Shown: positions 13,001 through 64,000 of the stretch, one piece after another
How the letters are laid out: every line of letters begins with the position of its first letter
Position numbering within the stretch: the stretch's first letter is position 1
Assembly: GCF_042242105.1 (NCBI RefSeq)
Contig: NC_092016.1
Span: forward strand, 11,236,501 to 11,300,500
Origin: Pempheris klunzingeri
Lineage: Eukaryota; Chordata; Actinopteri; Acropomatiformes; Pempheridae
Direction: 5' to 3'
DNA length: 64,000 nt
The notes under the pieces: model-generated
What the model saw: the letters and a program-made list of their open reading frames with translations, nothing else
The model's database searches: none
Told to the model about the DNA's origin: nothing
Made by a program: the position numbers and the translations under genes

Positions 13001-16000
13001 GAACAAATAGTTCTGAATGTGTTGATCATGATTTTTCATAGAACTGTGTAAACAGTTTTTAATGTGTCAGTCTCCAACATACCTTATGATTTACACTGTA
13101 GTATCAGTCAAGAAAATTGACTGCACTGGTCTCTGTTTGCCCCAGGAAAACAAATGTTTTCTGGTATGAAGCTGCAGTAGTACACTATATGTTAATGCAT
13201 TGTGTTTAAACTTTCCTTCCTTCAATTGCCTTTTAGCTATTGTTCTTTGACAAAGGTAGAGTGCAACTATGATGTCAAAGGTGAGTATTGTTACAACTAA
13301 TACTGTGATTTATTATTGTTACTGAGAAATCTATCATAGCATACACAAAACAATAGTCTGCATATACTGTAACAATAAAGACTCTATAGACTAATAGACT
13401 AAAGACTATATAATCCTTTCTTTTGCAGCTTGCACTTGTTCATATAAGGGACATATATACAAATATGACGATATAGTCTATTACACACATGACGGAGATG
13501 GAACCTGTATAACTGCAGTTTGTGGAGGAAATGGAAATATTACAAGAGTCATAGAGACTTGCGGTCCGACTTCGACCACCCAGGCACCAACAACAACAGG
13601 CTTTGATTTTTCCACAACTGGTAAGGATAAGAGATTTAACATGTGGAAAATTTCATAACTCTGGTTTTTTACACTTTGAAATACAGCTTTGTTATTCAAG
13701 TGTTTGTTTCTGTTTTTTGAAAATCACAGAAAAACCTACCACAACATCTTCAACTCCAAGTGTTACAACAGAGGCTGTGACAACAGTTCAGACCTTCACA
13801 ACACCAGGGATTTCTACAAGGTCTACAACAATATCTACTGAAAATCCAAGAGAAACATCCACAATCGCAGAAGAATCCACCACAACTCTGAAATCTACAT
13901 CGACCACAGAAAAGCATATTACTGTCACAACAACTACAGCAAAACCCACCACAACACCCACAGACTGCTTTGATTGTAAGTGGTCAGGCTGGACAAACAA
14001 TGATTACCCTAATCCCAGCATAGATGGTGGAGACTATGAGCCCATTGAAAAGATTACTGATCCAGATCTGAGTGTTTGCAGAAAACCACTGGATATAGAA
14101 TGTAGAGCAAAACAGTACAAAGATGTATCTTTGAAGGACCTAGGTCAAAAGGTAGCATGCAACTCAAAAGATGGACTCATCTGTCATAACAAAGACCAAG
14201 CTCTACCTGGTCTTTGTTTGGACTATGAAATACGAATCAAATGTTGTATTAACATTTGTAAGCCATCAACCACAATCACACCCTCAACAACCACAGGAAG
14301 AACCACAGAAGGGGCCACAACAACCACAGTCACAGAAGAACCCACTACGACGACCACATTCACTGTAAAACTCTCCACAACCACAGTCTCAAAAGAACCC
14401 ACCACTGTAACCACAATCACAGAAAAACCCACTACCACAATAACAAGGATCACAGAAAAATCCACAGTGATGCCCACAGAAAAGCCAAGTACCGTGGCAA
14501 CAACAGAAAAACCCAGTTCCAAAACAACCCCTGAATCCACAACAGTCACAGAAAAGCTGACTACAACTACAATCACAGAAAAGCCCACCACAACACCCAC
14601 AGACTGCTTTGATTGTAAGTGGTCAGGCTGGACAAACAATGATTACCCTAATCCCAGCATAGATGGTGGAGACTATGAGCCCATTGAAAAGGTTACAGAT
14701 CCAGATCTGAGTGTTTGCAGAAAACCGCTGGATATAGAATGTAGAGCAAAACAGTACAAAGATGTATCTTTGAAGGACCTAGGTCAAAAAGTAGCATGCA
14801 ACTCAAAAGATGGACTCATCTGTCATAACAAAGACCAAGCTCTACCTGGTCTTTGTTTAGACTATGAAATACGAATCAAATGTTGTATTAACATTTGTAA
14901 GCCATCAACCACAATCACACCATCACCAACCACAGGACGAACCACAGAAGGGGCTACAACAACCACAGTCACAGAAGAACCCACTACGACGACCACATTC
15001 ACAGTAAAACTCTCCACAACCACAGTCTCAAAAGAACCCACCACTGTAACCACAATCACAGAAAAACCCACTACCACAATAACAATTATCACCGGAAAAT
15101 CCACAGTGATACCCACAGAAAAGCTGAATACTGCAGCAACAACAGAAAAACCCAGTGTCACAACAACCCCTGAATCCACAACAGTCACAGAAAAGCTGAC
15201 TACAACAACAACCACAGAAAAATCCACCACAGTACCCACAGGAAAGCCAAGTACCCCAGCAACAACAGTACAACCAATCACCACCACAACCCTGGAATCT
15301 ACAATAATCACAGAAAAGCGTCCTTCTGTCACAACAACCACAGCAAAACCCACCCCAACACCCTCAATCACAGAAAAGCCAACTACAACAACCACAATCA
15401 CAGAAAAACCCACTACCACAATAACAAGGATCACAGAAAAATCCACAATAATACCCACAGAAAAGCCAAGTACCGTGGCAACAACAGAAAAACCCAGTTC
15501 CAAAACAACCCCTGAATCCACAACAGTCACAGAAAAGCTGACTACAACTACAATCACAGAAAAGCCCACCACAACACCCACAGACTGCTTTGATTGTAAG
15601 TGGTCAGGCTGGACAAACAATGATTACCCTAATCCCAGCATGGATGGTGGAGACTATGAGCCCATTGAAAAGATTACTGATCCAGATCTGAGTGTTTGCA
15701 GAAAACCACTGGATATAGAATGTAGAGCAAAACAGTACAAAGATGTATCTTTGAAGGACCTAGGTCAAAAAGTAGCATGCAACTCAAAAGATGGACTCAT
15801 CTGTCATAACAAAGACCAAGCTCTACCTGGTCTTTGTTTAGACTATGAAATACGAATCAAATGTTGTATTAACATTTGTAAGCCATCAACCACAATCACA
15901 CCCTCAACAACCACAGGACGAACCACAGAAGGGGCCACAACAACCACAGTCACAGAAGAACCCACTACGACGACCACATTCACAGTAAAACTCTCTACAA

Positions 16001-19000
16001 CCACAGTCTCAAAAGAACCCACCACTGTAACCACAATCACAGAAAAACCCACTACCACAATAACAATTATCACCGGAAAATCCACAGTGATACCCACAGA
16101 AAAGCTGAATACCGCAGCAACAACAGAGAAACCCAGTGTCACAACAACCCCTGAATCCACAACAGTCACAGAAAAGCTGACTACAACAACAACCACAGAA
16201 AAATCCACCACAGTACCCACAGGAAAGCCAAGTACCCCAGCAACAACAGTACAACCAATCACCACCACAACCCTGGAATCTACGATAGTCACAGAAAAGC
16301 GTCCTTCTGTCACAACAACCACAGCAAAACCCACCGCAACGCCCTCAATCACAGAAAAGCCAACTACAACAACCACAATCACAGAAAAACCCACTACCAC
16401 AAGAACAAGGATCACAGAAAAATCCACAGTGATACCCACAGAAAAGCCAAGTACCGCAGCAACAACAGAAAAACCCAGTTCCAAAACAACCCCTGAATCC
16501 ACAACAGTCACAGAAAAGCTGACTACAACAACAACCATAGAAAAATCCACCACAGTACCCACAGGAAAGCCAAGTACCCCAGCAACAACAGTACAACCAA
16601 TCACCACCACAACCCTGGAATCTACAATAATCACAGAAAAGCGTCCTTCTGTCACAACAACCACAGCAAAACCCACCCCAACACCCTCAATCACAGAAAA
16701 GCCAACTACAACAACCACAATCACAGAAAAACCCACTACCACAATAACAAGGATCACAGAAAAATCCACAGTGATACCCACAGAAAAGCCGAGTACCACA
16801 GCAACAACAGAAAAACCCAGTGCCAAAACAACCCCTGAATCCACAACAGTCACAGAAAAGCTGACTACAACAACAACCATAGAAAAATCCACCACAGTAC
16901 CCACAGGAAAGCCAAGTACCCCAGCAACAACAGTACAACCAATCACCACCACAACCCTGGAATCTACAATAATCACAGAAAAGCGTCCTTCTGTCACAAC
17001 AACCACAGCAAAACCCACCCCAACACCCTCAATCACAGAAAAGCCAACTACAACAACCACAATCACAGAAAAACCCACTACCACAATAACAAGGATCACA
17101 GAAAAATCCACAGTGATACCCACAGAAAAGCCGAGTACCACAGCAACAACAGAAAAACCCAGTGCCAAAACAACCCCTGAATCCACAACAGTCACAGAAA
17201 AGCTGATTACAACCACAATCACAGAAAAACCTACCACAACACCCACTGACTGCTTTGATTGTAAGTGGTCAGGCTGGACAAACAATGATTACCCTAATCC
17301 CAGCATAGATGGTGGAGACTATGAGCCCATTGAAAAGATTACTGATCCAGATCTGAGTGTTTGCAGAAAACCACTGGATATAGAATGTAGAGCAAAACAG
17401 TACAAAGATGTATCTTTGAAGGACCTAGGTCAAAAAGTAGCATGCAACTCAAAAGATGGACTCATCTGTCATAACAAAGACCAAGCTCTACCTGGTCTTT
17501 GTTTAGACTATGAAATACGAATCAAATGTTGTATTAACATTTGTAAGCCATCAACCACAATCACACCCTCAACAACCACAGGACGAACCACAGAAGGGGC
17601 CACAACAACCACAGTCACAGAAGAACCCACTACGACGACCACATTCACAGTAAAACTCTCCACAACCACATTCTCAAAAGAACCCACCACTGTAACCACA
17701 ATCACAGAAAAACCCACTACCACAATAACAATTATCACCGGAAAATCCACAGTGATACCCACAGAAAAGCTGAATACCGCAGCAACAACAGAAAAACCCA
17801 GTGTCACAACAACCCCTGAATCCACAACAGTCACAGAAAAGCTGACTACAACAACAACCACAGAAAAATCCACCACAGTACCCACAGGAAAGCCAAGTAC
17901 CCCAGCAACAACAGTACAACCAATCACCACCACAACCCTGGAATCTACGATAGTCACAGAAAAGCGTCCTTCTGTCACAACAACCACAGCAAAACCCACC
18001 CCAACACCCTCAATCACAGAAAAGCCAACTACAACAACCACAATCACAGAAAAACCCACTACCACAAGAACAAGGATCACAGAAAAATCCACAGTGATAC
18101 CCACAGAAAAGCCGAGTACCGCAGCAACAACAGAAAAACCCAGTTCCAAAACAACCCCTGAATCCACAACAGTCACAGAAAAGCTGACTACAACAACAAC
18201 CATAGAAAAATCCACCACAGTACCCACAGGAAAGCCAAGTACCCCAGCAACAACAGTACAACCAATCACCACCACAACCCTGGAATCTACAATAATCACA
18301 GAAAAGCGTCCTTCTGCCACAACAACCATAGCAAAACCCACCCCAACACCCTCAATCACAGAAAAGCCAACTACAACAACCACAATCACAGAAAAACCCA
18401 CTACCACAATAACAAGGATCACAGAAAAATCCACAGTGATACCCACAGAAAAGCCGAGTACCACAGCAACAACAGAAAAACCCAGTGCCAAAACAACCCC
18501 TGAATCCACAACAGTCACAGAAAAGCTGACTACAACAACAACCATAGAAAAATCCACCACAGTACCCACAGGAAAGCCAAGTACCCCAGCAACAACAGTA
18601 CAACCAATCACCACCACAACCCTGGAATCTACAATAATCACAGAAAAGCGTCCTTCTGCCACAACAACCATAGCAAAACCCACCCCAACACCCTCAATCA
18701 CAGAAAAGCCAACTACAACAACCACAATCACAGAAAAACCCACTACCACAATAACAAGGATCACAGAAAAATCCACAGTGATACCCACAGAAAAGCCGAG
18801 TACCACAGCAACAACAGAAAAACCCAGTGCCAAAACAACCCCTGAATCCACAACAGTCACAGAAAAGCTGATTACAACCACAATCACAGAAAAACCTACC
18901 ACAACACCCACAGACTGCTTTGATTGTAAGTGGTCAGGCTGGACAAACAATGATTACCCTAATCCCAGCATAGATGGTGGAGACTATGAGCCCATTGAAA

Positions 19001-22000
19001 AGATTACTGATCCAGATCTGAGTGTTTGCAGAAAACCACTGGATATAGAATGTAGAGCAAAACAGTACAAAGATGTATCTTTGAAGGACCTAGGTCAAAA
19101 AGTAGCATGCAACTCTAAAGATGGACTCATCTGTCATAACAAAGACCAAGCTCTACCTGGTCTTTGTTTAGACTATGAAATACGAATCAAATGTTGTATT
19201 AACATTTGTAAGCCATCAACCACAATCACACCCTCAACAACCACAGGACGAACCACAGAAGGGGCTACAACAACCACAGTCACAGAAGAACCCACTAAGA
19301 CGACCACATTCACAGTAAAACTCTCCACAACCACATTCTCAAAAGAACCCACCACTGTAACCACAATCACAGAAAAACCCACTACCACAATAACAATTAT
19401 CACCGGAAAATCCACAGTGATACCCACAGAAAAGCTGAATACTGCAGCAACAACAGAAAAACCCAGTGTCACAACAACCCCTGAATCCACAACAGTCACA
19501 GAAAAGCTGACTACAACAACAACCACAGAAAAATCCACCACAGTACCCACAGGAAAGCCAAGTACCCCAGCAACAACAGTACAACCAATCACCACCACAA
19601 CCCTGGAATCTACGATAGTCACAGAAAAGCGTCCTTCTGTCACAACAACCACAGCAAAGCCCACCCCAACACCCTCAATCACAGAAAAGCCAACTACAAC
19701 AACCACAATCACAGAAAAACCCACTACCACAAGAACAAGGATCACAGAAAAATCCACAGTGATACCCACAGAAAAGCCGAGTACCGCAGCAACAACAGAA
19801 AAACCCAGTTCCAAAACAACCCCTGAATCCACAACAGTCACAGAAAAGCTGACTACAACAACAACCATAGAAAAATCCACCACAGTACCCACAGGAAAGC
19901 CAAGTACCCCAGCAACAACAGTACAACCAATCACCACCACAACCCTGGAATCTACAATAATCACAGAAAAGCGTCCTTCTGCCACAACAACCACAGCAAA
20001 ACCCACCCCAACACCCTCAATCACAGAAAAGCCAACTACAACAACCACAATCACAGAAAAACCCACTACCACAATAACAAGGATCACAGAAAAATCCACA
20101 GTGATACCCACAGAAAAGCCGAGTACCACAGCAACAACAGAAAAACCCAGTGCCAAAACAACCCCTGAATCCACAACAGTCACAGAAAAGCTGATTACAA
20201 CCACAATCACAGAAAAACCTACCACAACACCCACTGACTGCTTTGATTGTAAGTGGTCAGGCTGGACAAACAATGATTACCCTAATCCCAGCATAGATGG
20301 TGGAGACTATGAGCCCATTGAAAAGATTACTGATCCAGATCTGAGTGTTTGCAGAAAACCACTGGATATAGAATGTAGAGCAAAACAGTACAAAGATGTA
20401 TCTTTGAAGGACCTAGGTCAAAAAGTAGCATGCAACTCAAAAGATGGACTCATCTGTCATAACAAAGACCAAGCTCTACCTGGTCTTTGTTTAGACTATG
20501 AAATACGAATCAAATGTTGTATTAACATTTGTAAGCCATCAACCACAATCACACCCTCAACAACCACAGGACGAACCACAGAAGGGGCCACAACAACCAC
20601 AGTCACAGAAGAACCCACTACGACGACCACATTCACAGTAAAACTCTCCACAACCACATTCTCAAAAGAACCCACCACTGTAACCACAATCACAGAAAAA
20701 CCCACTACCACAATAACAATTATTACTGGAAAATCCACAGTGATACCCACAGAAAAGCTGAATACTGCAGCAACAACAGAAAAACCCAGAGCCAAAACAA
20801 CCCCTGAATCCACAACAGTCACAGAAAAGCGTCCTACAACAACAATCATAGAAAAATCCACCACAGTACCCACAGGAAAGCCAAGTACCCCAGTAACAAC
20901 AGAAAAAACCAGTGCCACAACAACCCCTGAATCCACAACAGTCACAGAAAAGCTGACTACAACAACAACCATAGAAAAGTCCACCACAGTACCCACAGGA
21001 AAGCCAAGTACCCCAGCAACAACAGAAAAACCCAGTGCCAAAACAACCCCTGAATCCACAACAGTCACAGAAAAGCTGACTACAACAACAACCACAGAAA
21101 AATCCACCACAGTACCCACAGGAAAGCCAAGTACCCCAGCGACAACAGTACAACCAATCATCACCACAACCCTGGAATCTACGATAGTCACAGAAAAGCG
21201 TCCTTCTGTCACAACAACCACAGCAAAACCCACCCCAACACCCTCAATCACAGAAAAGCCAACTACAACAACGACAATCACAGAAAAACCCACTACCACA
21301 ATAACAAGGATCACAGAAAAATCCACAGTGATACCCACAGAAAAGCTGAATACCGCAGCAACAACAGAAAAACCCAGTGCCAAAACAACTCTTGAATCCA
21401 CAGCAACCACAGGAAAACCCACCACAATTGCCACAGAAAAACCTACCACAACAATGGCACAGGAAAAGCCTACTACTCCAGCAGCAACTACAGATAAGCC
21501 AACTCTTGAAACTCCAGCTGTAACACTTTCAACTCTTCAGTCTACGACATCAGGAAGGACAACTTTATGTTTCTGCAAGTACATGGATCAAACTTTCTCT
21601 CCTGGTAAGCAATGGCTATTATCATCAGCTATGATTCATATTATCATTGTAATGTTCTGGTACAGTTTCATGTGTCCTTGCAATGCAACCTGGAATATCT
21701 TATCACAACAGACAGCCTAAACTGTAAGTTGTTTATGCTTTATGTTGAAATCCTGTTCGCATTGAGATCTATTATCAGAACCCACATTGTGAGTTGGCAA
21801 TTTTTAGATGCTAGACAAAACTAAAAGAAAACAAAACAATTGGCTTTATTCTGTTCTCAAATGGCGTTGTTCATCTATTTTTATGCTGTAGTGACTTCTA
21901 CTGGTTTGTCATGGGGCTTGCACAATGGAGAGATAAGATATGACCACAACTGGCAAGTTTGGTCACAACCCTTATCCCTACTTGCGCTGTGGCCAAAAAA

Positions 22001-30886: not shown

Positions 30887-31019
30887 GCACCCTAGACCTG
30901 CTCTCGACCCCTGTCGATAAATGTAGGCAATTAAACTATAACAACTCTCCGCAACTATTCCTAACTACTTTAAATAAGTAGCACTTTCATTCAGCCACAC
31001 AGAAGATCTGGATTTTGAG

Positions 31020-31826
31020 ATGAATCAATCCAAACGAAGTGTGCAGACTCGTCTGAAAACTACAGCCACGGATGCTAGCCCTGCTAGCCCCGGAGCTAAC
31101 CCGAAAAACAGCATGGAAGACCTCTTCTCTGAAATTATGAAGCTTGGGGCAACTTTAAATCAAGTGGTGACTGATGTGACCATAATACGGGCAGACACCA
31201 CAGAGCTCAAGAACTCAGTAAGTGCGCTACAAACACGAATGGAAGAAGTCGAAACTCGCATTTCCAATGTGGAGGATAGCACTGCTAACATGGCTAATGA
31301 TAACAAGTGGCTAACAGAGCGAGTGGAACAACTATGGCAGAGAATTGAGGACTATGAAAACCAAAGCAGACGAAATAATGTCAGGCTGGTTGGACTGAAA
31401 GTGGGTAAAGAAGCTGGGAATAATATGAATGATTATGTCAGGAAGATACTACGAGATGGTTTTAAACTGGATGGAGATGAATATGAGATCGAAAGGAGCC
31501 ACAGAAGTGGGGGACCACGACAGGATGACAATCAAGCACCACGTATCATTCTGGTGAAGTTTCTACGTTATACGGCTCGACAGAAAGTTCTTGCAGCTGC
31601 AAAGAAAGCAAAAGGGCTAAAATGGGAAGGCTGCACTCTCTTGATGTTCGAGGATTTGACCAAGGAGCCCTCCGACCAGCGGAGGCAGTTCCCCCCCGTC
31701 ATGAAGACGCTGTGGCAGTACCAGGTGAAGCACACACTCGCACATCCAGCGAACTTGAGATTCACGTGGAAGGGGAAGAGATTCACCGACGAAATCGAAA
31801 AAGGCCGAACGCTTTGTCCGGGATAA
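31020..31826 (+). CDS. L1 ORF1 RNA-binding protein, frameshifted near its C-terminus
   Basis: 268 codons. Residues about 35-120 form heptad-like coiled coil (LKNSVSALQTRMEEVETRIS), followed by the RRNNVRLVGL motif that marks L1 ORF1p RNA-binding domains and a basic C-terminal domain. In the family this protein trimerises and packages element RNA as a chaperone. Close to the end, in a run of five A residues near 31797-31801, the frame is lost: the expected acidic tail continues in another frame to about 31957, while this frame stops at 31826. I read this as a one-base insertion in a homopolymer, either a mutation or a sequencing error. Confidence 0.75.
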   Translation: MNQSKRSVQTRLKTTATDASPASPGANPKNSMEDLFSEIMKLGATLNQVVTDVTIIRADTTELKNSVSALQTRMEEVETRISNVEDSTANMANDNKWLTERVEQLWQRIEDYENQSRRNNVRLVGLKVGKEAGNNMNDYVRKILRDGFKLDGDEYEIERSHRSGGPRQDDNQAPRIILVKFLRYTARQKVLAAAKKAKGLKWEGCTLLMFEDLTKEPSDQRRQFPPVMKTLWQYQVKHTLAHPANLRFTWKGKRFTDEIEKGRTLCPG

Positions 31827-32219
31827 TATTACGACCGCGGAACAAGAGGATTACGTGATACATGCGCCATGGAGAGTGGAACTTTATCCTGAAGGAGACG
31901 GCGGGGACGGGGATCAGCTGGGAGCTGTCAAAACCAGGCGGCGAGGAGGGGCGTGACGGCGCCGCCCACAGGATCCACGCGGACCGGAATCAGCAGAGGA
32001 GCTGCTCACACTGTCAGGTTCCTTTTTGAGACAGTGCTTTTTGAGTTGAGGTTGTTTTTCTTTTTGTTTACTGTTGCAGGACTTGAAATAAGGTTATGTT
32101 TAAATTTATTACTGCAGAGGCATGGCATGGATCTATTACACTGAAATATGGAATAGTATGGTTTTACTTTCAGAGAGAGGCAAATATTATTTTTACAAGC
32201 TTTATGGGTAGTCGGTACA

Positions 32220-34365
32220 TCTATATTGTTTCATGGAACATGCAATGGTTGCATGGTTGCAGATGTTGCTTTCATCCAAGAAGCACATTTTAAAAATGAA
32301 GATGAAGCTTTGAAATGAAACGTGACTGGGTGGGGAAGGTATTTCATATTTCTATATCTAGTAAGAGTTGTGGAGTTGCTATTCTAATTAACAAAAGGCT
32401 CAATTTCATACCTTCAAAACAATTTAAGGATTCTGATGGACGCACCCTGGGCGTGGAAGCTAAAATTAATGGAGTAAAAGTTGCATAATGTAATATTTAC
32501 GCCCCAACAAAGAAAGCCCAGTTTTTATAAAATAAATTATAGAATAATTAATTAATTACATCATCTACCGACATTAACAGGATTTTTAAAAGCTTCTATG
32601 AGGAACTATATACATCTTCAAATACAACTAATGAGGAGGATTTGGCCTCCTTTTTTGAAAAGATCACACTGCCACAGGTTCCTCAGATGGAAAAAGGTCA
32701 TTTGGATATACAGAAGTAAAAACCGCTATTATGGCTATGAAGTCTGGGAAGGGGGGGGTAGGGAACATAAACTTCTTCATTACGCGGACGACATTCTGGC
32801 ACTGTGTCAGGACCCAGCTAACTCTATAACACAATTACTGGAAACCATTAAAACATATTCCAAAGTTTCAGGGTACTGTATTAACTGGCATAAGTCAGAG
32901 GCCATGCCAGTCTCCCAGACCTGCTCCTCTAATCTACTCAATGCATTTAATTTTATATGGCTTCCAAAAGACATGAAATATTTAGGAATAGAACTAAATT
33001 CAGATATAGAAGAGATTATTACAACCAATATGGAAAAACTATTAAATAAAATAAAGGCTAATTTGGAGAAATGGGGCAGACTAAATTTAACATTATGGGG
33101 GAAAGTAAATACAATTAAAATGGTTATTGCCCCACAAATTAACTATCTTACTGGAATGATTCCTCTATGCATCCCTCCACAACTACTACTCAGATATAAC
33201 AACATGATAAAATGCTTCCTTTGGGGTGGAAAGAAACCCAGAATTCATTTAGATAAATTCTATCAACCATGAAAAGACGGGGGGTTGTCCCTGCCAAATA
33301 TTTCCTATTACAGTAATTCCTTTGAAATGGCGAAACTCGCGAAACACTGGAGTGGAACGAACACGGACTTGGACTGGATCTTGATTGAGCAGGAGCTCAC
33401 ATTCCCTTTCAAACTCACAGAGACTCTCACAAACGATTAAACAGAAGGAAAACAATATGATGAATCCAATTTTAACTCACTCAAGGAAAATTTGGCAGGA
33501 CATGCATAAAAACTGTAAAATCTCTCATAACACCCAAAAATCTGCATCTATTTGGCGTAATTCTAAAATAAAAATAGGTAAACAAACCATTTACTGAGCC
33601 CAGTGGTTGAAAAAAGGTATTAGAATATTAGATGATCTTTTTGAGGAGGGTAACTTTATTTCTTATCAAACATTATTAGATAAATTTAAACTAGAACAGT
33701 TCTTAAAATTACCACCAACTTCTCAAACAGCCTCCAAGTGGTACGAGGTCTGTCCTTGGAAGACCAGCAGAGGGTGTGATTATTTAAGGAAGATGTGGGA
33801 GAAAGATTTGGATTGTACTTTGGAGGAAGGAACGTGGAAGGGGATTCTTTCCAACACTGAAGAATATGTTAGAGAAGCTAGGAGCAAATTTATTCAATAT
33901 AAAATAATACATAGATATTACTACACTCCAACTAGACTTAATAAAATGAAATTAATTAAAGATGACCTGTGCTGGAAATGCAAGGCAGAACGTGGTACAT
34001 ATCTACACGCTATGCGGGAATGTCCTCGGGTTTTCCCTCTGTGGGAAAATGTTTTGGAGTTTGTAGGGAATTGGCTAGAATGTATACTCCCAACTTCACC
34101 AAGGCTCTGTCTCCTCGGAGACAAAACAACAGTACCAAATTTAAATAAATTTAAATACCGAATATTAAAATCTGGTCTATTAACCTGTGCTCGTCTGATC
34201 CTGAGGTGTTGGAAAGAACCCCAAACTCCGACTATGGAAATGTGGAAAGTTCAAATGATGGAAACGGCTGCATATGAAAAAATGTTGATGAGACTGAACG
34301 CTGGAAATGAAGCTGCTAATGAACAATGGGAGAGTTTTGGAGATTTTGTGTGTGTAAGAAACTGA
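32220..34365 (+). pseudogene. L1 ORF2 remnant (endonuclease and reverse transcriptase, broken)
   Basis: About 32220-32250 reads IVSWNMQW, the start of the APE-type endonuclease. After a small deletion and frame change the sequence resumes VAFIQEAHF, then stops (near 32486 and 32529). At 32575 a segment resembles the region before the reverse transcriptase (FYEELYTSS, MAMKSGKGG). It then jumps directly to LLHYADDILALCQD at about 32775, so fingers and most of the palm are deleted; only the YADD block survives. Stops at about 33271 and near 33595 break the rest. 33607-34365 keeps the C-terminal part with a Cys-His cluster (CWKCKAERGTYLHAMRECP). No active enzyme can be made from this copy. Confidence 0.88.
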
Positions 34366-45565: not shown

Positions 45566-48500
45566 ATGCCTCTGATACCTGTTGTGCCGGAGAACCACAG
45601 TCATGTACTGGCAGAGTTTGACTGCCTCGATCCACTCCTGTCTGCTCTCCGATTAGACTCTGGCAGACTCAAGGTAGGTTTCACCATCATCATGTTTAAA
45701 TCAGTGCTGTAATGAAATCACACTTAGATGATTTTTAGTATGTGCACTTTAGCATGTACAACATGCTATCACAAAAAATGTTTATCTAATGTGTCTACCT
45801 GAGGCAATGACTTAACTCTTATGAAATGTGACTTTTGTGTTATAGTGTACCTGTTTGGCGGTGACAAGAAAGTGGCTGGCATTAGGAACATCAGCAGGAG
45901 GGTTGCACCTGATTCAGAGGGAGGGCTGGAAGCAAAGACTCATCCTCACTCACAAGGTAATATATGACTGAGTACCTGAGTTACGCAGAAATACAGAGTT
46001 GACTATTGTTCTGATGTTAAATGAAACAGATGTATGATAAAGAGTACAGTTTAAATTAACCTGTCATGCACTCTTTTTCAGGAGGGATCTATCACTCAGG
46101 TGGCGTGTTGCCTTCATGATGAAGACTTTGTCGCTGTTGCAACAAGGTTAGAGTTTCTCCAGGAAGTAAAGAAATGTTTCGTACTCATCTACCCTCAAAC
46201 TACATTCACCCCTGTCATCTGGTGCCACCTCGCTCCTCTTCTGTCCACTCCTTTTCTCTCAGTGTTTGGCTGTGTTGCCTGTATCATTCACAGTGATTGC
46301 TGTGTTTGTCTGTGCTCCAGTCAGGGTCTGGTGGTGGTGTGGGAGCTGCAGCTAGAGCGGCGGGGTCGTCCAGAAAGAGTCAGTGTGTCCTGGGAGCACA
46401 GAGGTCAGACCATCACTGCACTCTGCTGGGACACCAGTGCACTCAGAGTTTTTGTTGGGGACTCAGGAGGCAAGGTGTCCTTTCTCCGAGCTGGATCTTC
46501 CAAACTGGGCAAGGTAGTGAAAACTTTTTGTTTCCTCTGTAATAATGTATATAAAATAAATGCGGCTTCTTGAAAAAGCAGGCACTTTATAGTGGATCCA
46601 CTGTCGGTTTTGAAAGGTTTTTGAAAGAAACTTATTTAATCATCAGACTAAGCATCTAAAAATAAAGATAATTGACTCTTGCTGGGCAAGTTCAACGGAG
46701 TAAAGTAGTAAATGGTTCAAGTTCACAGACTTGAATATGAACTGAAAAATGAAACATTCATTGTGCGCAAGACAACCTAATATCTCTTGGCTAGAAGTAC
46801 TCTGAGAAGGAAAGAGAGCAAAAAAAATGATGCTGATACAAGTTGATTAAAACAGACATGTAAAGCAAAATTAAAGGAAACTTTCAGCTTGCTATAAAAA
46901 GCCTTTGGAAGCTGTGATTTATGTGTAGTAGATGTTACCATCAAGTACTGGCTGACAGTGTGTCCACACATTGGTACATTATGTCGTATTATCTAGTTGT
47001 TTCTGTTTAAAGTTGAAATGTTTACCATGCAGGCATTTTTTTGCTTTGGAAAATGTTTTGCACCAGTGTAGTGTGTAAGCAGGTTTAGCGAATAGTGCAA
47101 AATGTGCAAAACCACTGACATAAGGAATTAGGTGGTTCATTTTTATTATTAGCTGTTTTCATATACAGTAGATCTGTCACGTCTGTGTCTTGCATCAGCA
47201 ATCACAGCAGAGACAAATGTTTGTATTTTTAAAATCTTTTAAGCTTGCATGAAATATTCCTTTAACAACTGCCTGAGATTTAGTTTTTTTGTTTCCTGCA
47301 CTTTTCAGCAACATTAACCAGTGGGATTTTTCATCTGATATTGTTTTTTTGTGTGTGTCTAGGGGTCAGGATTCGTTATCTTCCCTGTTCAGACTGTCAC
47401 CACTGTGGACTCCAGAGTGGTTCAGCTCGGGTACCAAGATGGCCGCCTGCTGGTGTCTTCCCTTAGCCGTTGCTACCTCTGTGACACGGAGAGGTGAGTA
47501 CCAGCATGGCTGTCTCTCATAGACTGTCTCTAGGAAGAGAGACTCTCAGAGGGACCATGCTAATGCCCCCATATTGGTACATATTGTCCTTACTGAAGTG
47601 TCTTCTATCAAGATGGTGAATCTGTATTCCAGTGCTCTTGGTTTTGTGGTTATTTATAAAGGATTCTTCACTAATTACTTATAATCTCTCTCAGCAGCAC
47701 TGTGTTTTTCTTTCTTTACCTTCCTTCAGGGAGAAGTTCTGGCGTGTTGGAAATAAGGAGCGTGACGGGGAGTATGGAGCTTGTTTTTTCCCTCAGAACA
47801 GAGGATTATTAGTTGGTCAGCCCCCCCTGCTGTACTGCGCGAGGCCGGGGTCTCGAATATGGGAGGCCAGTTTTAATGGCGAGGTTCTGAGCACACATCA
47901 GTTCAAACAGCTGCTGGCCTGTCCTCCTCTGCCTCTCATCACTTACAGGTACTGATTGTTCCTTGTTTTGCAAGCTCTATTAAAGACCAACTTCCTAATT
48001 TGTCATTCGTTCCTCTTTTACCTGCAGAAATGAGCCACATTACAACCCAGCGCAGAGGAGCTCCCAGTCAATTGCCTTCCCTAAACTGCTTTATTTGGGG
48101 TAATAAATTAGACCTAGTTTATATGTTTTATTATCAGAGGCCATTGTTTTTATGTAAGGGATGGTGATACAGGTCATTATACCTGAAGGGTATAATAATA
48201 GCCACCGCTCGCTGTACATAATCCCACTTATTACACAGCCTCAGACTAAAGAAATCAATAATTTGACATAAAATATTGATTTAAAAATGATTTTGTTGCT
48301 TCCGCTAGCAGAACTGTGACCATAGCAACGGTCTGCTATACAGATATAACAGACTGTAGAATGCTATAATTGACCAATCAGAATCAAGTGTTCTAAGGCA
48401 GTGTAATAAATATGCGTTAATCAATACAGGTAAATATGTACATCAGACAATGTCAGTCAAAACATAATTTTTACATGATATCTACAAATGAGCCTGTCAC

Positions 48501-51500
48501 TTAATGAACTGTACACTTTATTTATTTGCGTAGAGACCAAAATTTGCTGACCTGGACTGATTCTGCAGTTTATATCTTCACACCTCAGAATGGACAAGTG
48601 CTTCTGTGGGCTGAAGTCAAAGGTGTGTTCGCTGCTTTGTCGCAAACATTTTATTCATAAACACACAAACTGTCCATAACAGGGATAACTTAACATTGAT
48701 CCAAGCCTGTTTTCTGGTTTTTTAGACTTGGTAGATATTGCAGTCTACCGCAGCGAGCTCTTCTGTCTCCATGGCAGTGGACGTCTGTCCCACCTGTCCC
48801 TGTTATCTTCTGAGCGCTGTGTTGAGCGTCTGCTGCGGAGGGAGTCCTGGCTTCTGGCTGCTATAGTCTGCTGTATGTTCCAGCACACAATCACCACCGG
48901 CAGGGTAAGATGGCTGCTACTGCCATGTTAACTGGCCTCGTCTCTGTGTGCAGTGTATCCTAGATTCCAGTCTTATCTGGCTTGGCTGTTAATATGACCT
49001 CCTGACTCCTTGCATTCCTAAAGATAAAGCACAGTATGTACCTGTTCACCTGAGGTTTCTCACCTTGAATGGCCTGAACATAAAGATAAATACAAATGTG
49101 CAGGTGCTAGATATGGCTCTTGCTATTAAATGTATTATACTTTCAAGTTGACATGAGATTATCTCAGTAGTCAACAGTGTGATATTCTTAATACAGCACA
49201 TAAATATGCAACCATGAAAATCCTCAGGAGGTATGTGTGTCTTTGACTGAGACCTTCAAGTGGTTTGCCAAGGTAATCTATAGTAGTTTGTATATAAAAA
49301 TGTACTATATGATGAGTTTTGTAGATGCTGAAAACCAAATGTGGGGTGTACATGCTACAGGTTAAAGTATTAAGCATTTAAGAAATGAGGTAACTAATCC
49401 GATTGATCTGAATAAGAGCTCACCTTGGCTGTATTGTAGTGTTGATAAAGCTTTATTGAAAGCCTTGCTCATCATCCCTGTTTAATTCAGGCGAGGAAAT
49501 CAATTCCCATGGACCGCCTCGAACATCTCAGGTCCCAGCTCAGTTCCAGCACACACCCGGAGCTGACCAGCCAACTGGAGGAGGTCATCGCTAAACTGGA
49601 GCCTTTGGACTCTGCCTCCAGCAGCCGCAGAAGTAGCATCTCTTCACATGTAAGTTAATAACTCTGGAGATGATCTCTCTGAATAAACTAAATAAACTAA
49701 ATTTGCCAGGTAATGGTGAGCACCATAACAGTAGGCGATAAGATCACCAGTTCATTTACATTGAATCCTGTTGCTATGGATACCATTCAGTTATTGAAGG
49801 ACAAGTGTCCCTGTGGCACTACATTAAATCGGTTGTTTTGTGAGGAGTAGCAGGTTTCAACAGTGACTGAAACTGAATATGTATCCACATGTAAGAAGTG
49901 AGCGTACTGATATCGGATGTTTGATTATCCAGGAAAGCTTCAACGTCCTGGACTGTGGAATCTATCGCGTGATCAGCCGCAGAGGGAGTCAGTCAGATGA
50001 GGAGACGAGCTCCCTCATCAATCAGTCCATGTCAGAGGAGGAGCGGCTCAAAGAGTTCAGTTTTGGGCAGGAGGAAGATCAGGGGGATCATGGTAAGAGA
50101 TCAACAGCTGCCAAATGAACAAAGTCCGTCAGTAAAAATAAGACTGTTCATTCAAATTCATATATAGTCAATTTCAGGGGTTTGCTTTGTCAAAACTTCC
50201 CTCTTTGGATGGGGGTGATGTATACATTTAAGACTTTATATATTTTTGGATATAAACTAATTAACGTTTACAATGTTAGAATAATTGTAACAGCTCATTT
50301 GTACAATCTTCAAAAAAATACTGAATCAATGTGTATCAGATTTAGACACCATTTAGTGATGTTTTTATCTGCTCATAACAATGTATTTAGCAGAATTGGT
50401 TGTGCTAATGTTGAAACAGCGACCACAGCAAACCAGAAACACACAAACAAGAAACTCATTCACTCCCACACTCTTTGTTTCTTTCTTCACATCTTCTTTG
50501 TCTCCATTTTTGACTCTCTTTCTCTGTATATACTCTGTGTGTGTATGTAGCAAGAACAAACTCCTTTTCTGCATCTCCTGAGTTCAATGTGAAAAGAGAG
50601 TGAAATTATTTTCAGTAGTATTACTACCACTCTATTAAAATACCGGAATAATTTAAAAAAGCTTAACACAGAGGAAAAATGCCAAATGAAACATCTGTAT
50701 TCTGGAGCTATACTCTTTAGCTACTGAAAGATTTATCAGTACAAACGTGATAATAATTTTACTCTTGTTGTCATACGATTCATATGTCCCAGTTTTGTAT
50801 GTTTAATTAAATGTGTTTCTGATTTGATTTGAAAAAATACATAAAATCATAAAACCAGTCCTGTTGCTATTATGGGTGTAACAGTACATAAAAATCACGG
50901 TTTGGTTTGTACCTCGGCTGTTGAATCACAGTTTGGTATGTTTTCAGTACATCAGGAAGAAGAAACAAAATAAAAAACATTTAGATACGTGTACCGTTAC
51001 ACACTTGGTTGCCATGCTGTACCACTGGGTTTGCTGTGGGAGCTGAATGATGATGAATCACTCTGTTGGCTGACGTGCTTTGCAGATATAATCACACTGT
51101 TAATATCAAGTTTCTTGTCTGTTCCATCATACTGTATCACACATATATCACCATTTTGGTTTGGTCTGCAGCTTTTAATTTACGTTTTCTCTATAGTGGT
51201 GTCTGGCACCTTTGCTCCATCTGCTTGCATTATGTCCTCTGCCTCTCATCATTCCCCTCCAGTACTCCATCCATCTGTGTTTTCCTCTGGCTCTTGCCCC
51301 CATCTTTATTCAGATCCACAGAGCAGTGAGCGTATGGAGGCTGAGCGATCTGAGCAAGGCCTGCAGTTCCACCTCCCCCTCTCATTCCGCCCCAAACCCC
51401 CTCGCATCGCATTGCAGGCCGTCAAAGACAGGTGAAGATCCAGAGAATTGCAGGACAGACATGCTTTAAACAGAAGAATGTGTGACAGCAGCTCAGGCTG

Positions 51501-54500
51501 TTCAGGCATGAAGCTCTAATGTGTAGCTATGAATTTCAACACTGATGAAATTATTTGTGCGTTCTACTTTAATTTTTTGTCTTATTAGAGAAGAAACTCT
51601 CAGAATAACCATTTATTCAAGTGCAGCTGTGCTTTTCAATGGCTTACTTCCCCTTTCCACTGAAGACCCACATTTAGTTCTTTAGGCTCATTGGTCACCT
51701 GTGTAGGCACATGCAGCAGGTTTCATTTTCCAAGCATCACACTCATCTTTTGTCATATGAAACTGTTCACTGTTCTGTTTTCATCTTCCATCTCTTGTAA
51801 TCTTATTAGTGCGCAGTTGTTTCATTATTAAAATTTTCTTTTTCTCAGTGTTTCTAGTTTTGTTAAGAAGACAACAGAGAAGATCAACACCCTTCAGATG
51901 AACTCTGAGCTCTGGCAACGACCTGAATTCAGAGAGGCTGGACAGGCTGAAATGTCAGGCACCACAGTTCCATACTTAGAGGAAATAGACAACGAGTAAG
52001 TACAGACCTATTGGTCCCTAGTGGGCTAAAACCAATTTCTAGTGAGAATAGATGCATCCACACTCAGTTCTTTGACTTTAAATAACTCCGACCTTTGTCT
52101 TTAATAGGTTATTAAAACATTTAAAACCTGTGAATTATATTTGTCCTGACAGAGTTCATGATGAAATGCCTAACACAGAGGCTGACATGCAGGAGCTACG
52201 ATCAGCAACAGAGCGTGCTGTGTAAGTATGAACGGCAGAAGTTAGAATCCCGACTGCAAGATTTCACAACCTTTTTTCCCCCAGTTTTAATAGTGAAAAT
52301 GTACACGTGTTATGTTTTCCCAACATCAGCTTTCAGATCCAAGATCCTTTGGTGCTTCTGGATCCAGTGTGTCTGGCAGAGGCTCTGCTGGAGTGGCTGC
52401 CGGTGCTGGAGCGAATATTCGGACCTGTAGAACACGTATCAACTGCTGCGGGTGATTCAAACGTGGATGGACCAGGAGAGGAGAGGCTGGAGGAGTCTCT
52501 AAACTCCTGCTCAGAGCAACAAGAGGAGGCATCCTGCCCATCAGGAGAACCAACAGAGAGCATCACAGAGGAGAAGGAAGAGGCGTCTCCTGAGCTCAGA
52601 GATGAGGAGGACCACTGTAACTCCACTGAGAAGGAGCCTGAAGTCTCGAATGGCAGCCCTCCAGAGCCTGTTCGAGTGGTGTCTCCCAAACCTGTGCCAT
52701 CGGATCTCCTGGCTAACCTCACCCAGCTGGCAACGCTGTACACAGAGCTCAGCTGCTTCAGAGAGCAGGAGAATGAACACGCACTGGGGTGCACAACTTT
52801 TCTGCGTCGCTACTTCTTTCTGCTGGACCAAGAGCGCGTGAGAAGAATGTGCCTGCTGTGTTATCAGGAGCAGCCGGAGGTGCAGAGCTCCTTCACTGAG
52901 GCCATGATGGGTCAGAAGCTTCTCCTGAAATCGCTTTACCACACCAAACCAACTCTGGTTTTTTCTTTTCTTTTCTTTTCCAATATTCATTTTCAGATTT
53001 CACAAATTTAGAGAGAAAAAATGTATAAAGTAATAACAGCAAACGTATAAAAAAGTAATGTTGGGCTGCTGCGCTTTGAAAAGAAAAGTCATTCAAAAAT
53101 GTTGCAGATTCCTAGATAATGATGTTGAAAGTGAATAACTACAGATATTTCAAAACTGGATCTTGTTTCCATTGAGTAGTTAAGGAAGGGTCCTCAAATA
53201 CCCAAAACACTTATCCTGTTTCATAATTAAATCAGTGTATTGCTCCATTTTAATGATAAATGGCACTCATTCTTCACTAAATAAGTTTTTAAAACACACA
53301 GAAATTGATTATTTCTAGTCTAGGAGTATGTTCTGGTGGCTAAATGGAAAGATACAGCTAAGTGCAGATCTGGTTGGATGTCTGACATTAGAAAAATTGT
53401 AAATAAATAATGACATGGAACAAAACCCAAAATAACTGAGACAGAGATTCCTCAGCTAAAGAATTCCTGCCACATAATGATTGTCCTCAGTTTGGTTCTG
53501 CGGTAGTGGAGTCTATGGACAACAAACTGTATTAATGCAGCTCTGTGATCCAGTGAGCGACTTACTTCATCTAGTAACCCAACATGTAAATCAGAGGCCC
53601 ATGCATCCCACTAAACACTAGAGTAGTGAAAACCAGCCTTTTGTCGTTCTCCGTAGGTCTCACTCAGTCCGGTAAGGTGGCGGAGGTTATCCAGAGAGGT
53701 GATTTGCTGAGATCACTGCGCAGTCTGAGGGAGCTGCAGCCCTGGAGTGCTCCACCTCTCCTCGCTCACTTACACAGGTCAGTACACGTACTTCTTTCTA
53801 AAACTGTCAGCACATACTTCATCACAGCTGTGAGGAAACTTGTAAAGTAAGTTCACCGTGTTACTATCTAGGCTGTATGAGAAGCACGGGGAGGTGGCTG
53901 TGCGCTCGTTTTCCCAGTTCTATCCTACGATAACTCCTGCTGACGTAATGATCATGGCTCAGAAAAGCCACTTCCTGGCGTACCTGGATAATCTTGTCCA
54001 ATCACGAGCTGAGGAGCACAGGTACCTCTGCAGTATCACTGTGTTTTTTTTTCAAAGACAAAAAAAAAGCATTAAACATTTGTGTTGATCTTTACGTTCA
54101 CTTCTTCCTCTAGGTTGTCATTTTTGCAGTCCCTTCTTGAGCCAGAATCACTGAGACAGGATTGGCTAGAGCTGGCACTTACCCATGATGCCCCTCAACG
54201 CTGTGATACCCTCACCCCTGATGGACAGCCCAGGTCTGGGTCTGTTAGTGTGTGAAAACTGCAAAAAAGAATTGATCTTTAGTTTATTTGTATTCATTTT
54301 AACACTTACTTAAAGCCGAGTAAGATGTAAATTTGAGGCTGGAAATCAACCAAAATAATAAAATGTGAATAAAATGTTTTACTTGAATAGATAGGGCTAG
54401 TATGAGTACATTGTTTTCACTACTGGATTCCATTTCAACCACAACAAGGCTAAACTAAAAAATAACGAAGTGAAAGTGTATAATTGTAACTGTGCATCCA

Positions 54501-57572: not shown

Positions 57573-60500
57573 ATGGACGCAGCACTCATGGTGAGTTTAT
57601 GCTTTTTTCCATCTGGCTTATTTTTAACTATTCTAATAGAATGAAATTCCACATTTCTTGAGATACTCAGATGTGCTCTGGTTTCAGGTGTCCGTCCCTC
57701 TACTTGGACTGGCTCTTGTCCTGCTCTCCTTCCCTGAGCACGCTTCACTGAACAGAGTATTTGACAACACCTCAGGTAGGATTTCTGCATGATTATTACT
57801 GAGGAGACCAGGCACTGAGGAGCCTTTCTAAGTTTTCCTTTTTGCCTGTTTAGGAACTGTTTATCTGGGGTCTGCGTTTGTGAAGGAGGCTCTTCAGAGG
57901 GCGATTGAGCTGACTGATGCTGCTTATGCTCACACAAGTGAAAGGTAAGAAGTTACTGACTGAAATGCTGAAATCTATTTGTTCTCTCTGTAAGGCATTG
58001 TGTTGGCACTAAAACCCTTATTGTTTCCAGGGTGAAGAAGTCTCTGTCTGAAGGCGCTCTGAGACCCAGCGACCTGCTGGCTCAGTTTAAACAGACTGAA
58101 GCCAGAACCAGGACTCAGATCCGGGCGGCCGAACTGCTGGACAACACAGTGGAGCTGATCAGAGAGATGGTCTACACTCACACAATGGTGCAGCCCAACC
58201 CTCACGGTACCGAACAGCATAACACAAGGCATACAGATGATTCTGCACCGTATCTCTCACATTTTTTGCCAACTAATTCCAAACTAATCTAGGGCTTATC
58301 ATGCCTGGCCCACTTTATGTTGCCTTTCATGTATGTTTCATGCTACAGATGAAACTTCCTACTTTTTGGCTCCGTCTCATATTTTTCGTGCATAATGAGC
58401 TTAACATGTCCTCAGTGTCCAGCCATGAGAGGAACTAACGTCAGAATCCTATTCTCAGTAGATTTTAATGATTTGATGTGATGAACTGTCAGTTTCTTTG
58501 TCTTTATCAAGGTTTTTTATTTTACTTATTTTCAGTGGACTTACTTACTGCGTTTAACTGTATGTTCCCAAAGAGCTGTTGAGTGAAGCAGATGTGGAGA
58601 ATCTGCTGCAGGTGACGGGCTGCTCAGCTGAGCTGCAGACACCCAGCTGTGAGTCTGACTGTTTGTCTGAACGCTACAGATCCATCACAGGAGAGTGCAA
58701 CAACAGGTAAGCACGGCGTTTCCCAGTCCTGGTCCTGGGGGCCCACTGCCTTCAGTTCATTTGAATCAGGTGTGTTGAAGTAGGGAAACATCCAAAAATG
58801 CAGGGTAGTGAGTTTCCAGGACCAGGACTGGTTTAGTGCTTACACACACAAAAAAAACAATACATAGCAAGAGAAAACTACTGTCTTGAAAAGATTTTGT
58901 TTCGGTTTTTGGTAACTGTGTATCTGTGGTACTTTTGTCCTTAGACAGCATCCCAGATGGGGGGCTGCAAACATCCCGTATTCCCGCTGGCTGCCTCCAG
59001 AGTACGAGGATGGGTGGGGGACGCCTCGAGGCTGGGACTCAGAGCACACCTACCATAACGTCACTATGCCTCCAGTAAGAGTCCTGCAGCAGCGCTCAGT
59101 CCTCCTCTGCCCTGTCAGCCGCTGTATCTCCAACACTCCTCACTTTGTTAATTTTCCAGGTGCGGCTGGTGTCTCAGGACGTGCTGTTCACTCACAACGA
59201 CAACATCTCTCTGGACTCCACTCTGTCCCACCTGCTGGTGGAGTGGGGTCAGTGGATAGACCACGACATGGTGCTGACACCTCAGAGCCCCAGCACGGCC
59301 GCCTTCAGGACGGGAGCTGACTGCACACACACCTGCAGCCGGGACGCGCCCTGCTTCCCCATACAGGTCTACTTCACTAACTAATCCTCCTCCTTCTACA
59401 CACCGTGTAAAAACTGCACCTCTTATTTTATTGTAGGGACACTTCTTTTAATAGAAATATGAAATGCACAAAATACAAACTTATTAAGCTTTTGGTTTGT
59501 GACCCTGTAAAACAAAGCAGTTTTTTAAAATAAAAGTAGATAGAAATTATGATAAATGTTAAAAGCATAAATGTTTTTTTCTGCTCTCCTATCCTGTTAA
59601 TCATTGTTTATTATGATGGCCACAAAAAGGTCTTTGTTGCACGTCATACATCACATCCAATTCTGGTCCACCTCTTTACTCTTAACTGTCCAATAAAGGT
59701 GGAAATGCCAAAACAGTTATAAAAAATAAAAAAAACAACCTGTGACTTGTTGGAGAGCTATGAACCTGCTCTGGAATGTGATAAAAAGAAAGAAAACCAT
59801 AAGGTTTTTATTTTTAGCATTTTCCTCAAATATACTTTAACCCTTTCATGCATGAATTATGATAACCTCAGTCAGGATTTTTTTTTACTTTTTTATTTTT
59901 TAAAGATATATTTACATGTCCACTAGCTGAAATATAGTTACACTGTTAAAAAAGCTCAATGAAATAAGTTTACATGAAAATGACGTTACGTTACTTCTGA
60001 TTTAATAGAATAGAACTTTATTCATTTTGGAAGAAACATTTGTGCCTAAGTTGCTCTATATACATAGCATATGTCAAATAAATTGTATGAATTGATTGAA
60101 TATTCCATAAGCACACTGTATAACTTGAATAAAATATACCTTTTAATTTTTGTATGTGAATAATAAATTCAAAATGAATCTAGAAAAAAAAAAGTGAAAG
60201 GAAGGTATACAGTACGAATGATTGTGCATGATAATCAAAGTTTGAGGTAACATTTACAATATTGTAAATTATAAGCGATGAATAACTTTTACAACAAACT
60301 ATCTACTATTCTCAGTAAGAAGAAATATTTATTTTTCCCCGATAATTGACAATAAAACCTCTCCTCCCAGATCCCTCTGTCAGATCCTCGCAGTGGTGTC
60401 CAGAGTTGCATGCCTTTCTTCCGCTCTGCTCCCAGCTGTGTTGCTGGCCTCTCTCACGGCCACCGAGAGCAGCTCAATGCCATCACCTCCTTTGTAGATG

Positions 60501-63500: not shown

Positions 63501-63905
63501 GTCCCGCATCATTTGTGACAACACCCACATCACTCACGTCCCTACTGACCCGTTCTCACGCACTGAGAGGCCGGAGGACATGCTGGCCTGTTCACACCCG
63601 CTCATCTCCCACCTTGACCTCAGCCCGTGGAAAGAAGCAGACACAGGTGAGGGAGCAGAAAGAAAAGCATGTTGATTGCAGGTTTGTCTGGTGTGTTTTC
63701 ACATCTCTCCCTGCCTTGACCCGTGTGACCTCTCTTCTAGACCTCCGCTGTGGTCCAATACCCAGGGTTCAATCCGGCTACTCGATGCTCTGTGACTCTG
63801 TGGTTCTGTATCAGTGTCACGCCGGCTTCAAGCTGCTCGGATCTTCTTCTGTCAGCTGTGATCCAAACAGCCAGCAGTGGAGTCCCGCACCCCCGACATG
63901 TAAAG
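57573..63905 (+). CDS. tpo: Thyroid peroxidase (5' 14 exons; truncated by window end)
   Basis: TPO is the membrane heme peroxidase of thyroid follicles that iodinates and couples tyrosines of thyroglobulin. Coding exons: 57573-57590, 57688-57775, 57854-57944, 58031-58206, 58574-58706, 58945-59074, 59160-59366, 60371-60734, 60813-60973, 61059-61317, 61403-61573, 63127-63364, 63435-63646, 63741-63905; 804 codons so far, all in frame. A signal peptide follows [19 protein letters not shown]. Peroxidase signatures: [21 protein letters not shown] (distal His), [42 protein letters not shown] (proximal His), [22 protein letters not shown] and [10 protein letters not shown]. The last exon is a complete Sushi/CCP domain (LRCGPIP...PPTCK), which separates TPO from MPO/EPX/LPO. 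EGF, transmembrane and tail exons must lie beyond 64000. Confidence 0.95.
58724..58830. mobile_element. 107-base MITE in a TPO intron
   Basis: CAGTCCTGGTCCTGG (58724-58738) and CCAGGACCAGGACTG (58816-58830) are perfect 15-base inverted repeats. The interior includes ATTTGAATCAGGTGTGTTG, familiar from a widespread fish family. No coding capacity. Confidence 0.8.
59367..60370 (+). other. TPO intron 7, AT-rich
   Basis: A 1,004-base intron. TTAACCCTTTCATGCATG near 59839-59856 resembles the end of a known teleost DNA-element type, but no matching second end was found. Otherwise nothing recognised. Confidence 0.4.
61574..63126 (+). other. TPO intron 11, nothing recognised
   Basis: The 1,553-base intron is the longest in this part of the gene. 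No exon, RNA or element is supported. Confidence 0.5.
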
Positions 63906-64000
63906 GTACCAATCAGGGTTTCTGATGGCTTCATGTTTCTGTATGTCCAGACACATGCAGCTTTGTTTTCACTCTCATTCTATCATGATGTTTCTACACG

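Follow-up and report, generated by a model that had tools for sequence, protein, structure and literature searches.

Whole-module spacing of CysD domains in a predicted gel-forming mucin gene of Pempheris klunzingeri and its probable origin by in-register repeat exchange

Introduction

In the central exon of human MUC5AC, near-identical CysD domains are split by groups of short repeats rich in proline, threonine, and serine (PTS), and each group consists of a constant head (36 amino acids), n repeats of 8 amino acids, and a constant tail (13 amino acids), with n = 119, 18, 35, and 65 in the four groups and a single 7-residue exception (PMC9712336). Here, we describe a comparable array in Pempheris klunzingeri (646-Mb genome). 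It lies on the plus strand of a 64,000-base stretch, C5:11236501-11300500 (hereafter the window, to which coordinates are relative), in the central exon of a predicted gel-forming mucin gene with six CysD domains. As in MUC5AC, near-identical CysD domains are split by PTS groups whose length is a constant plus a whole number of repeats (PMC9712336). In contrast to MUC5AC with its 8-residue unit, the window mucin uses a unit of 114 residues, and n is only 1 to 4.

The central exon of human MUC5B likewise alternates CysD domains with repeat blocks, and its four PTS domains carry homologous tails of 147 amino acids each, although its repeats measure 24 to 34 residues, mostly 29, and its steps are less exact (PMC9712336). 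The human MUC6 repeat exon, like the window array, has a long PTS module as its unit of copy number (169 amino acids or 507 bases, estimated at 15 to 26 copies between people), but the known MUC6 sequence has no CysD domains (PMC6269512). Among cartilaginous and bony fishes, a CysD-repeat "Mucin-5AC" family with 2 to 27 CysD domains has been described (PMC11765562), from which the window gene differs in having VWD and C8 domains that flank the array on both sides. Human MUC5AC alleles vary in CysD and repeat copy number (PMC11344006), and repeat-length variation has been ascribed to unequal crossing over and slippage (PMC13345508).

In the mucin literature surveyed, we found no account of CysD domains spaced exactly by whole numbers of 114-residue modules, which is not proof that none has been published. 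The present case adds to the known mucin arrays a long module with CysD domains interposed. A similar architecture occurs in the higher-order repeats of satellite DNA, whose long units, built from diverged short ones, remain alike and undergo in-register exchange. The hierarchy of the window array is the same, but the array is protein-coding.

Results

CysD Domains Are Spaced by Whole 342-Base Modules

The six CysD domains start at positions 13966, 14605, 15586, 17251, 18916, and 20239. Their start-to-start spacings of 639, 981, 1665, 1665, and 1323 bases equal 297 + 342n exactly, with n = 1, 2, 4, 4, and 3, reproducing the domain count, spacings, and formula of the initial annotation, which had been made from this sequence. 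An alternative formula, 639 + 342n with n = 0, 1, 3, 3, and 2, fits equally well; the 297 of the first formula is left as a remainder and approximates the length of a CysD domain. The linkers between CysD domains, 114 to 456 residues long, consist of 14 blocks of 342 bases, and all 14 align without gaps. The parts of the array are as follows.

13730..21604, plus strand: large PTS-rich central exon of the predicted gel-forming mucin with six CysD domains; frame open throughout, AG before 13730 and GTAAG after 21604, splice borders judged by eye
13966..14262, plus strand: CysD1, block length set at 297 bases; Pfam Mucin2_WxxW for the common CysD sequence
14263..14604, plus strand: linker 1, one module (L1.1), a near-clean head/tail chimera by diagnostic sites, breakpoint at module positions 146 to 185
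14605..14901, plus strand: CysD2
14902..15585, plus strand: linker 2, two 342-base modules, L2.1 (head) and L2.2 (tail)
15586..15882, plus strand: CysD3
15883..17250, plus strand: linker 3, four 342-base modules, L3.1 to L3.4
16567..16908, plus strand: module L3.3, chimeric, with L3.4 as 5' parent and L3.2 as 3' parent; breakpoint at module positions 256 to 299; 19/19 diagnostic sites
17251..17547, plus strand: CysD4, same sequence as CysD6
17548..18915, plus strand: linker 4, four 342-base modules, L4.1 to L4.4, with chimera L4.3 at 18232-18573; 17/17 diagnostic sites
18916..19212, plus strand: CysD5
19213..20238, plus strand: linker 5, three 342-base modules
20239..20535, plus strand: CysD6
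20536..21604, plus strand: terminal PTS stretch, not in 342-base steps
20755..21123, plus strand: three units of 123 bases, mutually 88.6 to 95.9% identical

Sequence identity reaches 94.2 to 99.7% among the nine internal modules, 98.2 to 99.1% among the head modules L2.1-L5.1, and 98.3 to 100% among the CysD copies. L1.1 is 92.1 to 93.0% identical to those four heads, and head modules are 69 to 75% identical to internal modules. At the level of whole intervals, the two of 1665 bases (intervals 3 and 4) are 99.3% identical, and when the third module is taken out of interval 4, the remainder differs from interval 5 at 7 of 1323 bases. Intervals 3 to 5 resemble block duplicates, and linker lengths were probably copied along with the blocks. 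If so, few independent facts lie behind the exact spacing, and about three length changes may underlie the five spacing figures. In addition, an exact tract of 741 bases at offset 2988 (positions 16995 and 19983) runs from the end of linker 3 across CysD4 and recurs from the end of linker 5 across CysD6. These regions are not adjacent, and the tract suggests either recent conversion or a copied two-CysD block.

Within-class comparison covered 13 of 14 modules, grouped in four classes without L1.1, and the six CysD domains; it yielded a minimum of 35 substitutions and no indel between copies. With so few substitutions, at least 35, the absence of small indels from the modules carries little weight.

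Exact Repeats and Chimeric Modules Point to Exchange in a 342-Base Register

The initial annotation had called for a repeat analysis of 13730-21604, and the exon was scanned for exact tracts at 2997 offsets (3 to 2999). Tracts of at least 40 bases appear at 25 offsets, and hand calculation shows that each can be added up from CysD spacings, 342, and the 123/246 of the terminal stretch. Below 342, tracts of at least 25 bases occur only at offsets 123 (four tracts, the longest 53 bases) and 246 (two tracts, the longest 44), all of them located from 20791 to 21140, after CysD6; the longest tract at any remaining offset in this range is 23 bases. In the CysD-to-CysD stretches, the scan found no exact tract longer than 23 bases at any offset below 342. 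Inside the 14 modules, where the short TEKP/TTTT units have diverged, identity between neighboring 123-base blocks is 45.5 to 52.0%. For the linkers, no register is better than 342.

Fifteen module triples were tested for chimeric structure by scoring parent-specific diagnostic sites. Nineteen sites distinguish L3.4 from L3.2, and L3.3 agrees with L3.4 at the first 8 and with L3.2 at the last 11, switching between module positions 256 and 299. L4.3 is L4.4-like and then L4.2-like at all 17 diagnostic sites, with a switch interval identical to that of L3.3. Four parent pairs were tried for L1.1; the best describes it as L3.1-like (head) and then L2.2-like (tail) at 101 of 105 sites with a switch between 146 and 185, and the others reach 99/104, 95/102, and 93/101. 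Such single-breakpoint chimeras match what exchange between modules in 342-base register leaves. Together with the shortness of exact tracts at all other sub-342 offsets between CysD domains, they support the earlier proposal of exchange on the 342-base unit. L2.2 was also considered as a chimera, but L3.2 + L3.4 and L4.2 + L4.4 fit poorly as parents (12/19 and 12/17), and L1.1 + L3.4 gave no breakpoint (83/93, all on one side).

The letters at module positions 86 and 98 are common to L4.3 and L4.4 and absent in L3.3 and L3.4, and L5.3 has the letter at 86. Later conversion and separate events are both possible sources of this pattern.

The Terminal Stretch Changed by Part of a Module

The initial annotation had also held that the glycosylated stretches change length "never by part units." This claim fails in the same exon, beyond the region that it covered. 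After CysD6, the linker resembles that of interval 4 but carries an additional 246 bases of 123-base units, with the extra part beginning between 20763 and 20790. When 246 bases are removed, 9 mismatches in 839 bases remain relative to interval 4, the best result among 174 sizes; the next best, 216, leaves 74, and removal of 0, 123, or 342 bases leaves 90, 89, and 88, respectively. A length change smaller than one 342-base module did therefore occur in the central exon, at the one site whose shorter repeat units have stayed alike.

A Model for the 342-Base Steps

From the spacings, module identities, chimeras, exact tracts, and 246-base difference described above, we infer that exchange produced these features, and likewise its kind and the order of events. 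The central exon would be a multi-level tandem array in which short TEKP/TTTT units have drifted apart inside the 342-base module, leaving that module as the smallest CysD-to-CysD unit that still has exact tracts longer than 23 bases. Misaligned homology-directed exchange, whether by unequal crossing over or template switching, would pair repeats that lie whole modules or CysD-plus-linker blocks apart. Because the short units have diverged and only whole modules still pair, every gain or loss would be a multiple of 342. Whole CysD-linker blocks would then have been copied, spreading linker lengths, and after CysD6, where the 123-base unit remains alike, length would have changed by 123-base units instead. 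We consider it likely that in-register misaligned exchange of this kind explains the 342-base steps.

Several observations weigh against this model or limit its reach. The exact tracts shared by the inferred parents measure 38 (L3.1/L3.4), 45 (L2.1/L2.2), 61 (L3.2/L3.4), and 73 (L5.2/L5.3) bases. Human meiotic exchange is estimated to require 300 to 500 bases of homology, and one cell assay recorded a 20-fold fall as identity went from 232 to 134 bases; exchange events with less than 50 bases of homology are also on record (PMC2583991). Parent homology of 38 to 73 bases is well below the 300 to 500 estimate and short for ordinary meiotic exchange. The longest exact tract at offset 342, 384 bases, joins each chimera to a neighboring parent module. 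It was considered as the homology that met the published recombination length and rejected, because chimera/parent identity arises from exchange, which makes the tract a product of the exchange and not its cause. The chimeras leave some latitude as well. L3.3 can alternatively be described as L2.2 + L3.2 (18/18 sites, switch at 179 to 205), although its letters at 225, 232, and 256 are absent from both of these modules and present in L3.4. In view of their shared breakpoint interval, L3.3 and L4.3 may represent a single event copied with its block. All of these data come from one assembled haplotype.

The exchange model does not explain how a 342-base unit was first duplicated. If the 150-base head and the 5' part of the internal module descended from one sequence, the head-bearing module would be expected to measure exactly 342 bases as well. 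In an ungapped comparison of L3.1 with L3.2, however, 65 of 150 bases are identical, a value matched by 12 of 49 codon-frame rotations. Within this comparison, bases 61-150 give 41 identities (reached by 6/49 rotations) and the last 60 bases give 32 (3/49), and common origin was not shown over the whole length.

With parent homology this short, template switching becomes a reasonable alternative to meiotic crossing over. Replication slippage or template switching would be a variant of the exchange model rather than its opposite, and the same one-breakpoint chimeras are expected from it; parental tracts of 38 to 73 bases, short for meiotic exchange by the estimate of PMC2583991, also speak for it. 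On the other hand, block copies such as those of 1665 bases would be long for simple slippage events, and nothing in the present evidence separates these processes from crossing over. We regard slippage or template switching, in place of meiotic unequal crossing over, as a possible but rather unlikely source of the in-register changes.

The pattern could also be artificial, had the assembler added or dropped modules. Repeat copies up to 99.7% identical and the 741-base identical tract at offset 2988 would fit this reading, but the exon frame is open throughout, the window contains no N, and intervals 3, 4, and 5 are told apart by substitutions. Moreover, a whole-genome protein search returned at least 34 CysD matches, of which six were at 99 to 100%, all six at the window locus. 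A second copy of the window CysD domains, such as another haplotype, was not found in this search, which covered CysD-bearing copies and whose counts are lower bounds. We judge misassembly to be very unlikely.

Other CysD Arrays in the Genome Use Other Steps

If selection held CysD domains, as cross-link or contact sites, at set distances, only linkers of n x 114 residues would survive. The lack of small indels in the modules and the near-identity of the CysD copies would both be in keeping with such selection. Linker lengths at this locus vary fourfold in module number (n = 1 to 4), however, with a 2.6-fold range of CysD spacing, and the terminal stretch changed by 246 bases, though not between two CysD domains. 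Furthermore, at least 35 substitutions and no indel are too few to demonstrate an indel deficit.

The other CysD arrays of the genome bear directly on this alternative. A further mucin (L011; C5:11219968-11224218), located upstream at some 12 kb from where the window begins, has six CysD domains and a 54-base PTS unit, which suggests a local mucin cluster. Its CysD spacings are 810, 813, 867, 867, and 594, with differences in 54s and 3s, and its leading offset (the one at which exact tracts take up the most bases) is 54, with a longest tract of 191. A gene on C1 (L009 and L010 joined; C1:28931491-28941183, minus strand) encodes 20 CysD domains within a single open frame of 3352 amino acids. 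Twelve of its 19 spacings are 450, the rest being 405, 423, 660, 600, 585, 663, and 672, and its leading offset is 450, a step with irregular ends. This gene may belong to the fish CysD-repeat family described in PMC11765562.

A spacing quantum common to the window array, L011, and the C1 gene was looked for and none was found; the step size tracks the local repeat in each array. A selected CysD distance is therefore disfavored, and the second proposal of the initial annotation, selection for fixed CysD spacing, was not supported. We consider selection for set distances highly improbable, and that selection rather than repeat mechanics confines CysD cross-link sites to whole multiples of a 114-residue glycosylated rod seems to us barely credible. 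Two further weak CysD matches, L012 (C6) and L013 (C1:13127000-13128400), are single domains without a spacing to measure. Judged by eye, each CysD-like domain lies near a frame resembling a thrombospondin-type repeat, as in cartilage intermediate layer proteins.

Gene Identity and Neighboring Features

The window CysD domains lie inside the PTS exon and match PF13330 (Mucin2_WxxW; E = 7.4e-26), with Mucin-5B (8oer_I, E = 1.6e-24) as the top match in the PDB, and Thr-rich linkers are evident in the exon translation. Among sequence pieces from upstream of the array, Pfam recognizes three with VWD and one with C8. The D3 piece has Mucin-5B as its top match (8oes_A, E = 2.6e-114), followed by Mucin-2 (3.2e-111) and, close to these, Mucin-5AC, and scores lying so near one another do not settle assignment to one member. 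Downstream of the array are VWD (E = 2e-19) and C8 (E = 3.3e-16). C-terminal pieces, picked and joined by eye, gave Cys_knot at 21.9 bits against a cut-off of 24 and a VWC-like piece without a match. By these domain matches, the window gene is predicted to encode a gel-forming mucin of the MUC2/MUC5 kind.

Minus-strand open frames of up to 481 amino acids run through the repeats of 13730-21604 and are probably a by-product of repeat composition. Elsewhere in the window, open frames at 30978-34362 resemble pieces of an element of the long interspersed nuclear element (LINE) type, one of them with a zf-RVT match that stays under the curated cut-off. An HPS5-like gene has exons downstream at 46055-53008 (Pfam Beta-prop_HPS5 and TPR_HPS5), and farther downstream, 60356-63922 contains an exon for animal haem peroxidase as well as a Sushi domain.

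Discussion

The modular length pattern of this array is genuine but largely expected, as the ordinary growth and shrinkage of repeated DNA by misaligned exchange. Its value is that of a readable example of how mucin repeats grow. In each array, the step is set by the shortest level of repeat whose copies are still alike, giving 342, 54, and 450 bases in three arrays of one genome. If this rule is general, the steps by which mucin alleles differ would be predictable from a single reference sequence.

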